This document shows positions 60,731 to 64,000 of a stretch of 64,000 nt of DNA, one piece after another. The stretch is from Proteus terrae subsp. cibarius (GTDB lineage: Bacteria; Pseudomonadota; Gammaproteobacteria; Enterobacterales; Enterobacteriaceae). The position numbers and the translations under genes were made by a program. The number at the start of each line of letters is the position of its first letter. Within the stretch, counting starts at the first letter, position 1. The DNA is taken from positions 806,001 through 870,000 of the forward strand of contig NZ_CP047349.1 of assembly GCF_011045835.1 (NCBI RefSeq). The letters are read 5' to 3'. The notes under the pieces are model-generated. The model saw only the letters and a list, made by a program, of their open reading frames with translations. It had not been told where the DNA came from and searched no databases.

Positions 60731-62323
60731 TTATTCTCCATGTCGAATTTGTTCCCAACTTAAATCGAATTTCGCAAGATATTTACGTAGGCGATCGGCA
60801 TCGTTGGGTTGTTTTTTATTTTGTCTTGATACTGCGAAAAGTTTTCTACCGGCTTCTGAGAGCGTTGATGATTGCTGGCACGTTTTGATAACTGTATTGA
60901 GTTGGCTAAGATCGAAAAGATCAATATCAGTACTATTAAATAAAGAAGAGGAAGTAACTCCCCAATTTTGTTTTAAACGATTAATTTCTTCATCAACAAG
61001 AGGAAGGGTAATACGACCATTTTCGGCAAGTGTTGCCATTCGCGTTATACTAGCACTAAGTTCACGGAAATTACCACGCCATAATGCCTGTTCAGATGTT
61101 GCAAATCGAATATAGTGTGATTTCGCATCAGAATTAAAGCGAATTGCCTTTTGATAAAGCTTTGCAAAGTGATGCAATTCATAATCGACGTTAGGCTCAA
61201 TATCCTCTTTACGATCGGCTAAACCCGGCAGTGAAAAAGACCATAAATTGATCCTCGCATAGAGATCTTCACGAAAAAGCCCTTTTGCGATTTGTTTGTC
61301 CATATCTCGATGCGTTCCCGCAATTAGCTGAAAATCGCTTTGAACTTCAGTATCGGAGCCATAAGGATAAAAAGATTTCTCTTCTATTGCTTTCAGCAAC
61401 ATTGCTTGTTCATCAAGTCCTAGTTCCGCAATTTCATCAAGAAATAAAATTCCTTTATCGGCCTCCCTTAATAAACCTTGTCTGGCTTGTAATGCGCCTG
61501 TAAATGCCCCTTTTACGTGGCCAAATAAAGTAGACATGGCGTTATCACCGCGCAAAGTGGCGCAGTTAACAGCAATAAAACGTCCTTTTACAAAATGACG
61601 AGACTGCCGTAATTCATAAATACGCTGAGCAAGAAATGATTTCCCGGCTCCTGTAGGGCCTGTTAATAAAATGGGTGCAACAGAGCGTAATGCCACTCGC
61701 TCAATCTGAGCAATTAAAGTATTAAAACGTTCGTTGCGTGTGGCTATTCCTGATTTTAAGAAAGAGAGTGACTCATTATGGTAGTGCTCGAATCGGCTGG
61801 TTAGTTTTGTATAACGGCTTAAATCAAGATCAATAACAGAATAACTCCCCGTGGCTGATTGTACTGTTTTGATACCATCTTCATTTTCGATTTTAGAAGA
61901 AGGGGAAGTTTGTAATAGTTTTGCAGGTAAGTAGTGCGCTTCAGTCAGTAAAAACCAGCAAATCTGAGCGATGTGAGTACCCGTTGTGATATGGATATAA
62001 TATTCTTCATTTTCAGTATCAAATGGATAATTCACTGCAAAATCAAGAAAGTGACTGTAAACCTCTTCCAGATCCCAAGGATCACAAATATCAATTTCGT
62101 AAGGTAATACTTCTGTATCAGGAGAGACAGTATGAATATCTTCAATGATTTTTGATGCTAATATTGAATCATTGGGTTGATGGATCATGACCAATCGACT
62201 AACGGGGAAATCTTTTTGATGGCAAATAGAAATTGTTGGACGCCATGAGTTCCATCTTTTATGGCTTTTTCCCCGTTTATCTAATGTTGTGCCTAAAACA
62301 CCAATCACCACTTTGCGTTTCAT
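60731..62323 (-). CDS. rtcR: RtcR, CARF-domain sigma54 activator of RNA repair
   Basis: Transcription activator of the rtc RNA-repair operon. The 530-residue product (E. coli 532) has an N-terminal CARF-type domain (about 1-180, with TTGTHIAQICWFLLTEA), which in Salmonella responds to damaged-tRNA fragments. The sigma54-activating AAA+ domain follows: Walker A GPTGAGKS (222-229), GAFTGA (272-277), Walker B ILFLDE (292-297). A C-terminal helix-turn-helix region completes it. An AGGG ribosome site precedes the ATG, and a 19-bp perfect inverted repeat lies just upstream of it. A sigma54 promoter faces away at 62489-62504. Confidence 0.96.
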   Translation of the reverse strand: MKRKVVIGVLGTTLDKRGKSHKRWNSWRPTISICHQKDFPVSRLVMIHQPNDSILASKIIEDIHTVSPDTEVLPYEIDICDPWDLEEVYSHFLDFAVNYPFDTENEEYYIHITTGTHIAQICWFLLTEAHYLPAKLLQTSPSSKIENEDGIKTVQSATGSYSVIDLDLSRYTKLTSRFEHYHNESLSFLKSGIATRNERFNTLIAQIERVALRSVAPILLTGPTGAGKSFLAQRIYELRQSRHFVKGRFIAVNCATLRGDNAMSTLFGHVKGAFTGALQARQGLLREADKGILFLDEIAELGLDEQAMLLKAIEEKSFYPYGSDTEVQSDFQLIAGTHRDMDKQIAKGLFREDLYARINLWSFSLPGLADRKEDIEPNVDYELHHFAKLYQKAIRFNSDAKSHYIRFATSEQALWRGNFRELSASITRMATLAENGRITLPLVDEEINRLKQNWGVTSSSLFNSTDIDLFDLSQLNTVIKTCQQSSTLSEAGRKLFAVSRQNKKQPNDADRLRKYLAKFDLSWEQIRHGE

Positions 62324-62335
62324 TAAGTTATCCCT

Positions 62336-62383
62336 ACTTATCTTTTTATCTATATTTATAAATGTATAGATAAAAAGATAAGT
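62336..62383. repeat. 19-bp perfect inverted repeat in the rtcR leader
   Basis: Arms ACTTATCTTTTTATCTATA (62336-62354) and its exact complement (62365-62383), with a 10-nt spacer that is itself mostly palindromic. It lies 13 bp before the rtcR ATG, immediately 5' of the ribosome site. It could be an RNA hairpin in the leader or a DNA operator. Confidence 0.9.
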
Positions 62384-62488
62384 TTTTATCGATTTTAATT
62401 CAATAGCTAAATATTTAAAAATTACACTGAAAATCCTTTTATTAATTAAAACATATAGTTATAAATATTTTTGGTGATATTTAAAAAC

Positions 62489-62504
62489 TTGGCACGATAC
62501 TCGC
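62489..62504 (+). promoter_or_regulatory. Sigma54 promoter of the RtcR-controlled operon
   Basis: TTGGCACGATACTCGC keeps the invariant GG (62491-62492) and GC (62503-62504) with exactly 10 nt between them, and TGGCAC matches the -24 consensus fully. It reads rightward toward the tRNA-like RNA and the slipin gene, divergent from rtcR. Start expected near 62516. RtcR binding sites should lie between it and rtcR (62384-62488). Confidence 0.88.
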
Positions 62505-62563
62505 AATATTATTAATGTCTTGAGCAGATTTTAAATCTGGTAGGCACATAAAGAACACTCTGT

Positions 62564-62648
62564 GGTGTTATCTAAATGTGTTCCTCCACATCGGGACTCT
62601 GTAGGTGAAGAGGGTTATTTTCAGGTTCGATTCCTGACACCAAAACCA
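62564..62648 (+). ncRNA. tRNA-like RNA downstream of the sigma54 promoter (candidate Y RNA)
   Basis: A perfect T-arm TCAGG-TTCGATT-CCTGA (62621-62637) follows a D-arm-like hairpin CTCT-GTAGGTGA-AGAG (62597-62612) and another hairpin ATGTG-TTCCTC-CACAT (62576-62591). GGTGT (62564-62568) can pair with ACACC (62637-62641). A CCA occurs at 62646-62648. The anticodon arm and a 7-bp acceptor of a true tRNA are missing. In Salmonella the RtcR-controlled operon encodes Y RNAs (YrlA/YrlB) whose one end mimics a tRNA. Ends are approximate, and assignment as a Y RNA needs covariance evidence. Confidence 0.6.
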
Positions 62649-62685
62649 TTACAAATCCAAATGTAAAATTAAATATAAAAAATCG

Positions 62686-62742
62686 TTGTGACAGCAGTAT
62701 CGTCACCTTGCTTATCCACCAGCAACTACGCTGGATTGAAGG
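62686..62742 (+). other. Structured leader RNA upstream of the slipin gene
   Basis: Hairpins GTGAC (62688-62692)/GTCAC (62702-62706) and CCAGC (62719-62723)/GCTGG (62730-62734), the latter enclosed by CCTT (62706-62709)/AAGG (62739-62742). It could be a second small RNA, as yrlB lies beside yrlA in Salmonella, or a leader structure. Confidence 0.4.
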
Positions 62743-62880
62743 CAGAAGAAGAGACAAACAAAGTATCGTTCCTCTCTTGTTTTCCCTTCGATTTCGCCAA
62801 GTTTGTTCGTGGGAAGCAAGTCACGATAAAAATGGTAATAAAAGAAAGCCAATAATAAAGAAGAGAAAAAGGAAGCAATG

Positions 62881-64000
62881 ATGATAAGAACAACAATAAA
62901 AGTGAAACAGGGACAACTGGGTTTATTAAAGAAGGACGATGAATATATTGATGTCCTTGCTGTGGGTGAACATAAATTTTTCGATCTTCGCCGTCAATTA
63001 AGTGTTGAGCTGGTGGAATTAAACGGCCCTGCAATTGAAAGGGAAAAAGCTGAATTTTTACGCCAATATCATCCAGAATGGGTGAGTGAATATTGTTTTG
63101 ATATTGTGCTATCTGATGAAGAGATTGGCTTACTTTATGAAAATGGCTCTCTCAAAGAGATCTTATCGCCGAGTACTCGCCGCCTCTATTGGAATTATGC
63201 ACAGCGCTCAATGGAAGTGTTGTCAGCAAATGAATTGGAAGTTTCGCCAGCTTTGGTTAAAAAATTACAGTATCCAAAATTACGTAACCAGACGATAAAA
63301 GGCAGTGAAGGTGTATTAAGTGTGGATATTCCGACATGGCATGCTGGCATTATCCGTGTTAATGGTGAAACTCAATCACTATTACCACCTGGATTAAAAG
63401 GCTATTGGCGTTATCAGCACAAAGTTGATGTTGAAGTCGTTGATATGCGCTTGCAAACACTCGATGTAAGTGGTCAAGAGATCTTAACAAAAGATAAAGT
63501 GACCTTACGCATTAATCTGTCAGCGAGTTGGCGTTATCGCGACGTGCTTTCAGCGTACCAACTACTGAGTTCACCTCTTGAGTTCTTATATAAAGAGTTG
63601 CAGTTTGCGTTACGTGAAGCCGTAGGAACAAGAACATTGGATGAATTATTAGAAAATAAAACACTGATTGACAGTTTAGTGAGTGAAAAAATCAGGGAAG
63701 TGACTAAAGGATATGGCATTGAAGTAGCTTCATTAGGGGTAAAAGACATTGTTTTACCGGGTGAAATGAAAACGATTTTAGCGCAGGTGGTTGAGGCTGA
63801 AAAATCAGCTCAGGCTAATGTTATACGTCGAAGAGAAGAGACATCCGCGACACGTTCTTTATTAAATACGGCAAAAGTGATGGAAAACAATCCAGTAGCT
63901 CTACGATTAAAAGAGCTAGAAACCGTAGAACGTATTGCAGAACGTATTGATAAGATTTCCGTTTATGGTGGTTTAGACCAAGTATTAAACGGGCTAGTAC
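62881..64000 (+). CDS. Slipin (stomatin/SPFH-like) protein, 3' end outside window
   Basis: SPFH-family scaffold protein. 373 residues are visible, and the frame is open to the window end. Seen: an unusual soluble N-terminal extension (about 1-135) with no clear membrane segment, then an SPFH core (VDVEVVDMRLQTLDVSGQEILTKDKVTLRINLS in parts) and the slipin C-terminal coiled-coil region with SATRSLLNTAKVMENNP. The ATG at 62881 has 7-nt spacing from AGGA; 62878 is an alternative. It is the first protein gene after the RtcR-type promoter, so it is probably induced with RNA repair. RtcB/RtcA would be expected next, beyond the window. Confidence 0.85.
   Translation, partial: MIRTTIKVKQGQLGLLKKDDEYIDVLAVGEHKFFDLRRQLSVELVELNGPAIEREKAEFLRQYHPEWVSEYCFDIVLSDEEIGLLYENGSLKEILSPSTRRLYWNYAQRSMEVLSANELEVSPALVKKLQYPKLRNQTIKGSEGVLSVDIPTWHAGIIRVNGETQSLLPPGLKGYWRYQHKVDVEVVDMRLQTLDVSGQEILTKDKVTLRINLSASWRYRDVLSAYQLLSSPLEFLYKELQFALREAVGTRTLDELLENKTLIDSLVSEKIREVTKGYGIEVASLGVKDIVLPGEMKTILAQVVEAEKSAQANVIRRREETSATRSLLNTAKVMENNPVALRLKELETVERIAERIDKISVYGGLDQVLNGLV

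Follow-up and report, generated by a model that had tools for sequence, protein, structure and literature searches.

The right-hand end of a 64,000-nucleotide (nt) stretch of Proteus terrae subsp. cibarius DNA (NZ_CP047349.1, positions 806,001 to 870,000; hereafter the window) carries the beginning of an RNA-repair operon of the RtcR/sigma54 type, in which the promoter is followed by a putative non-coding RNA with a tRNA-mimicking part, a gene for a slipin-type SPFH protein and, just past the end of the window, the ligase gene rtcB. The gene order, the promoter element, the RNA architecture, its link to the slipin gene and the loss of the normal decoding loop can be read from the DNA of the locus and its relatives. 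That a soluble SPFH assembly uses the tRNA mimic of this operon as its RNA cofactor when tRNAs are repaired is a proposal to which we give about an even chance. The features of the locus are listed below in window coordinates, except for rtcB.

60731..62323, minus strand: rtcR, gene for a sigma54-dependent activator with a CARF-type regulatory domain (PF06956, E 1.2e-78; NF038308)
62336..62383, no strand: perfect palindrome with 19-bp arms and a 10-nt spacer, candidate RtcR enhancer site (from the sequence)
62489..62505, plus strand: sigma54 promoter (-24/-12), GG-N10-GC, TTGGCAC-N5-TCGCA (from the sequence; similar element in Proteus relatives)
62517..62597, plus strand: leader RNA (match to model R2 at 62522-62588; covariation of P2 and P3 in relatives)
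62517-62523 with 62591-62597, plus strand: leader stem P1 (Proteus group fold, by eye)
62525-62539, plus strand: leader hairpin P2 (covariation in relatives)
62540-62584, plus strand: leader arm P3 (covariation in relatives)
62602..62648, plus strand: tRNA-like minihelix (from the sequence and relative L025)
62602-62607 with 62638-62643, plus strand: minihelix acceptor with one A-A mismatch (from the sequence)
62621-62637, plus strand: minihelix T-arm, T-stem TCAGG/CCTGA, loop TTCGATT
62645 and 62646-62648, plus strand: A and CCA of the minihelix 3' end (from the sequence)
62682..62827, plus strand: predicted folded 3' part of the RNA, downstream of the tRNA-like part and upstream of slipin (RNAalifold, 11 Proteus sequences)
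62878..64000, plus strand: slipin-type SPFH protein gene, extending 23 nt beyond the window (PF01145, E 8.1e-27)
G000:C1:870020-871243, in the slipin direction: rtcB, open reading frame (ORF) of 407 aa (Pfam RtcB PF01139, E 7.9e-131)

The rtcR product scored 794 bits against the NCBIfam model RNA_repair_RtcR (NF038308; cut-off 650), and its gene is divergent from an element with the GG-N10-GC spacing of a sigma54 promoter, as an earlier sequence-only reading of this DNA had described. The RNA damage-repair operon proposed in that reading also held up past the end of the window. In the extended stretch (L009), the slipin ORF is complete at 381 aa, and its stop shares four bases (ATGA) with the start of rtcB, which runs in the same direction. 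Since rtcB overlaps the slipin stop in this way, the slipin gene precedes rtcB in an RtcR-type RNA-repair operon. It had been suggested to replace or precede the usual genes; it precedes rtcB, and the usual partner rtcA is absent from the genome. The rtcA family (PF01137) was found neither in the Proteus genome, with E. coli among the positive controls, nor in any of 20 genomes of the genus, 16 of which have RtcR matches above the family cut-off; these are exactly the genomes that carry the slipin. The co-directional unit comprises the RNA, slipin and rtcB and is followed by an invertase gene on the opposite strand. By its RtcR with a divergent sigma54 element and its rtcB, the locus is, judged from gene content, a member of the RtcR-controlled RNA-repair operons.

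The Proteus relatives L010-L025 have a sigma54-like element as well, 380 to 389 nt before slipin. The palindrome upstream of the promoter in the window is a likely RtcR enhancer site, and in 41 of 85 distinct loci the 230 nt before the sigma54 site contain a TATC-N3-7-GATA motif, compared with 2.4% in mononucleotide shuffles. A sub-threshold mir-1277 match, obtained with lax Rfam settings, overlaps the palindrome.

Relatives were collected by scanning species genomes with a slipin alignment, the best 80 of 546 confirmed candidates being used (the named loci). Together with three records from a plasmid collection, they gave 83 loci whose genes were typed by blastp. Within the stretch examined, RtcR was found in 71 of these loci, RtcB in 70, RlaP in 45 and RtcA in 18; five of the 12 loci lacking RtcR have less than 2 kb of upstream sequence, and two of the 13 lacking RtcB have less than 2 kb downstream. 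The nucleotidyltransferase is RlaP, with PF10127 found in all three members tested. Nine Enterobacteriaceae loci, including those of E. coli and Citrobacter, have slipin followed by RlaP and no RtcB in the stretch examined (L040, L042, L051, L053, L057, L058, L059, L063 and L066). Separately, L088 and L096 have a second RtcB-like gene across rtcR, and the Proteus genome contains two adjoining RlaP-family genes far from the operon (L154 1574-3389, G000:C1:2176073-2177888).

The E. coli version, consisting of the RNA, slipin and RlaP, matches 1624 of 5426 complete E. coli genomes, and in 1616 of these a single place accounts for 80% or more of the query; this version offers an easy test bed. The E. 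coli locus L040 has a sigma54-like element and a tRNA-like minihelix at the slipin-RlaP operon and no adjoining rtcR. Strain WAT (L157, NZ_CP012380.1) matches L040 at 100%, likewise has no rtcR beside the operon and is annotated there with protein genes only. A natural guess is that control of this operon comes in trans from the rtcR that accompanies rtcBA.

The tRNA-like RNA noticed in the sequence-only reading proved to be real and smaller than that reading implied, being an acceptor/T-arm minihelix only. Its acceptor (TAGGTG/CACCAA) has four contiguous pairs, an A-A mismatch and one further pair, and the T-arm is followed by AA and CCA; there is no D-arm and no anticodon arm, hence no cloverleaf, 7-nt anticodon loop or U33. 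In relative L025, both acceptor strands are changed (TCAGTG/CACTGA) and all six pairs are kept. The register of the CCA is not fixed, because the Proteus relatives L014, L015 and L018 have one extra A before it. ARAGORN did not call the window minihelix as a tRNA, and Rfam at its thresholds gave nothing on the window RNA; with lax settings, only sub-threshold matches appeared, including one to permuted tmRNA (E 4.8) across the T-arm. The evidence for the window RNA is comparative and does not come from single-sequence folding energy.

Among the 80 named loci, the density of a strict T-arm motif is 1.54/kb in the 1 kb upstream of slipin (one strand), compared with 0.043/kb elsewhere (both strands, true tRNAs counted). 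The motif occurs in 75 of these loci, two or more times in 43, and the strict search found it upstream of slipin in 124/130 loci, a count that takes in near-identical Proteus loci and some loci twice. An even phylum sample of 398 genomes, in which 23 slipin loci were picked by protein alone, gave T-arm motifs upstream of slipin in 22 loci and two or more in 20; the remaining locus has only ~0.1 kb of upstream sequence. RNA regions contain one to three tRNA-like elements, and tandem pairs are frequent in relatives: where exactly two motifs are present (n=65), they lie 65-77 nt apart in 60 loci. Elements without a recognised D-arm have an acceptor of at least six contiguous pairs in 51 of 87 distinct cases, compared with 14.2 expected from shuffled upstream sequence; the window element is not among the 51. 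Many first elements in relatives lack some arms. CCA follows the first element in 51/108 distinct cases and the second in 9/64.

The leader, which separates the sigma54 site from the first tRNA-like element, has two hairpin arms and, in several group folds, a closing stem. In 24 leaders of the beta-/gammaproteobacterial type, both sides are changed in 14 of 18 pairs, with covariation of 0.472 compared with 0.07-0.15 for slid partners; these leaders were hand-picked for a clear GGTGC...ATGCCG pattern (alignment A2) and are therefore biased to that form. For 22 Enterobacterales leaders, the corresponding figures are 15 of 20 pairs and 0.646 compared with 0.10-0.15, and the measure of further pair types fell below its shuffles (499/500 reached it). 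Leader covariation is thus far higher than in the slid and the shuffled controls. Both structures are RNAalifold consensus folds of the very alignments on which they were scored, which favours them. The leader model R1 matched 52 of 94 sources at E <= 1e-3, once each, on the slipin strand and upstream of slipin, 28 of them being non-seeds; within the phylum sample, it matched five genomes, always 370-431 nt upstream of the slipin match. A second model, R2, built without Proteus, matches the window at 62522-62588, with E 2.2e-4 when 291 kb are searched and E 4.2e-7 for a target of 551 nt; in the other Proteus loci listed, its matches fall at the corresponding position. As a single negative control, the promoter region of E. 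coli K-12 rtcBA has a sigma54 site and showed no T-loop motif and no leader match. Downstream of the tRNA-like part, the RNAalifold consensus of 11 Proteus sequences contains 52 predicted pairs, six with changes on both sides. A folded 3' part is also predicted group by group in other relatives; some of these folds are ragged, and homology across groups was judged by eye.

In the proposed mechanism, the transcript would start with a compound non-coding RNA, in which the covarying leader is followed by at least one tRNA-mimicking element and then by the folded 3' part, and would continue as a single unit into the genes for a soluble SPFH protein and the ligase RtcB, in many relatives also RlaP and/or RtcA. 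Broken tRNAs with cyclic-phosphate ends would switch on RtcR, so that the RNA is produced together with the SPFH protein. This protein may assemble into a soluble ring-like structure and bind the tRNA mimic at its acceptor/T-arm elbow; via the mimic, or in its place, the assembly would bind damaged tRNA halves, and RtcB (and RlaP) would then mend and reseal them. The genus has RtcR and no RtcA, while RtcR activation in E. coli reportedly requires RtcA together with RtcB (PMC9650030). A genus of this kind would have to use ends that nucleases make directly, or some other route. Given the requirement in E. coli, the retention of RtcR in a genus without detected RtcA makes the activation signal testable.

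Several observations weigh against this mechanism. The region 62514-62660 on its own folds no better than its shuffles (z -0.34), and only four pairs of the window acceptor are contiguous. Model R1 finds the leader in 5 of 23 slipin genomes and does not recognise that of Proteus, and R2 misses the Proteus leader at genome scale, where it also gave three weak matches away from slipin. Two Pseudomonas loci, L065 and L070, have the leader (both are seeds) and slipin without a T-arm motif; their tRNA-like part appears to be lost or altered past recognition. Deletion of the SPFH gene in the P. aeruginosa rtc locus is reported to leave growth, swimming, biofilm, pyocyanin and oxidative-stress responses without a phenotype (PMC13086221), although the rtc operon may have been off in those assays.

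The RNA region could instead be a structured 5' leader regulating slipin-rtcB, with a tRNA-processing enzyme, RtcB or slipin binding the tRNA-like part and controlling its own messenger. In most loci examined, the RNA is flanked by the sigma54-like element and the start codon of slipin, which agrees with this, and the CCA after the first element could invite tRNA-processing enzymes. However, a leader would hardly be expected to hold two or three tandem elements as well as a folded 3' part, and both leader and tRNA-like elements persist in loci without rtcR within 6 kb upstream (L101, L106, L119 and L120). We regard such a regulatory role as possible and on balance rather unlikely.

The Proteus slipin is 96% identical to that of another Proteus, and the SPFH (Band 7) domain PF01145 is present in all 48 members of the slipin alignment (A4), which holds 47 of the 80 named loci and the window, longer-match loci and many near relatives being left out. 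Stomatins typically have an N-terminal membrane hairpin or helix. In the structure model of the slipin, only beta modules and short helices precede the SPFH domain (pLDDT 91.5, residues 1-189), and the model contains no membrane helix, no dedicated membrane predictor having been run. The soluble N-terminal extension named in the sequence-only reading is thus retained, with its solubility predicted from the model, and the membrane scaffold of the same reading is not supported; a soluble SPFH assembly is the preferred reading. Foldseek with the full model returned major vault protein at E ~1e-11, with the SPFH domain and a long C-terminal helix in common. An extension of the cofactor mechanism, which we consider distinctly unlikely, is a bacterial vault-like ribonucleoprotein. 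The SPFH protein, soluble and equipped with tandem beta modules and a cap helix, would enclose a compound tRNA-mimic RNA in a shell or ring; this RNA, having given up its anticodon loop, would escape cleavage by anticodon nucleases, and the particle would gather broken tRNA halves for RtcB and RlaP; the E. coli slipin-RlaP operon, without an rtcR of its own, would be switched on in trans by RtcR from the rtcBA locus.

The anticodon position of the cloverleaf-forming elements bears on two further alternatives. Among 87 distinct elements, this loop is of 7 nt in 34 (with U33 in 20 of them), 4 nt in 27 (13 GNRA, 7 UNCG) and 5 nt in 16, with other sizes or none in 10; one element (L121, -614) has no hairpin. 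The parser demands a D-stem and a T-arm, counts are per distinct element and omit five true tRNAs that lie upstream in L030 and L116, and the 5-nt loops may be 7-nt loops with one extra pair, as controls indicate. Of 20 genuine tRNAs run as a control, 14 were parsed, none with a 4-nt loop, and U33 was present in 9/9 with a 7-nt loop. Because many of the anticodon arms are capped by GNRA or UNCG tetraloops or have no U33, the elements can hardly decode, and decoding is not what is conserved. A decoy that soaks up anticodon nucleases and spares the real tRNAs is quite improbable, as no cleavable loop is conserved and the window RNA has no anticodon arm at all; a variant acting by the elbow alone is left untouched by the loop data. 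That ordinary tRNA genes merely happen to sit before slipin is hardly credible: ARAGORN and Rfam do call some elements tRNA, but tetraloops that no parsed genuine tRNA shows replace anticodon loops, U33 is often missing, arms are absent from many first elements, and the anticodons predicted by ARAGORN are scattered, include two-base ones and a stop, and differ between close relatives. As a side observation, public tRNA sets may hold false tRNAs derived from such mimics.

The gene grouping was also compared with known systems. Burroughs and Aravind (2016, NAR) reportedly proposed SPFH/Band-7 modules with a cognate novel tRNA-like molecule among RNA-repair systems; the likeness would lie in an SPFH gene and a tRNA-like RNA in this setting. 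Subject to that work, the additions made here are how the RNA is built, how its decoding loop has been lost, the occurrence of RtcR in a setting without RtcA, and how widespread the system is in E. coli. They show in concrete terms the make-up of a little-known branch of bacterial RNA repair, in which the mimic keeps the acceptor/T-arm and the decoding loop varies or is capped by a tetraloop.

The Salmonella rsr-yrlBA-rtcBA operon, controlled by RtcR, has RtcR and RtcB in common with the Proteus locus, and likewise a non-coding RNA, there YrlA, that contains a tRNA-like domain (PMC7790460), whereas Proteus has an SPFH protein and neither Ro60 nor RtcA. A Ro60/Y RNA system, at which the sequence-only reading had hinted with its mention of a Y-like RNA, is very improbable despite this resemblance, as no Ro60/TROVE gene (PF05731) was found in the Proteus genome, one control genome being positive.

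The kind of grouping is itself largely known, and an SPFH gene within an rtc locus is in print for P. aeruginosa, where PaFlo8 (PA14_60630) is embedded with rtcR, rtcB and rtcA (PMC13086221); no RNA is mentioned in the parts of that paper drawn on, and the term trna is absent from its main text. For P. aeruginosa, two further conserved operon proteins of unknown function have been listed (PMC8619066), and RlaP has been found across several counter-RNase repair systems (PMC6514570). The literature on rtc, RtcB, RlaP, SPFH and vault, covered mostly at the level of listings and passages, yielded no description of the RNA. In Anabaena, the slipin gene alr0740 and an rtcB gene are listed together among the genes on which the repressor TrcR has an effect; a tRNA operon is under its control as well (PMC10272220). 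Slipin, RtcB and tRNA-type genes may therefore be linked independently in that organism.

Downstream of the Proteus rtcB (L009 5680-18001), the invertase gene encodes a tyrosine-type DNA invertase and is followed, as judged by eye, by two successive similar fimbrial gene clusters.

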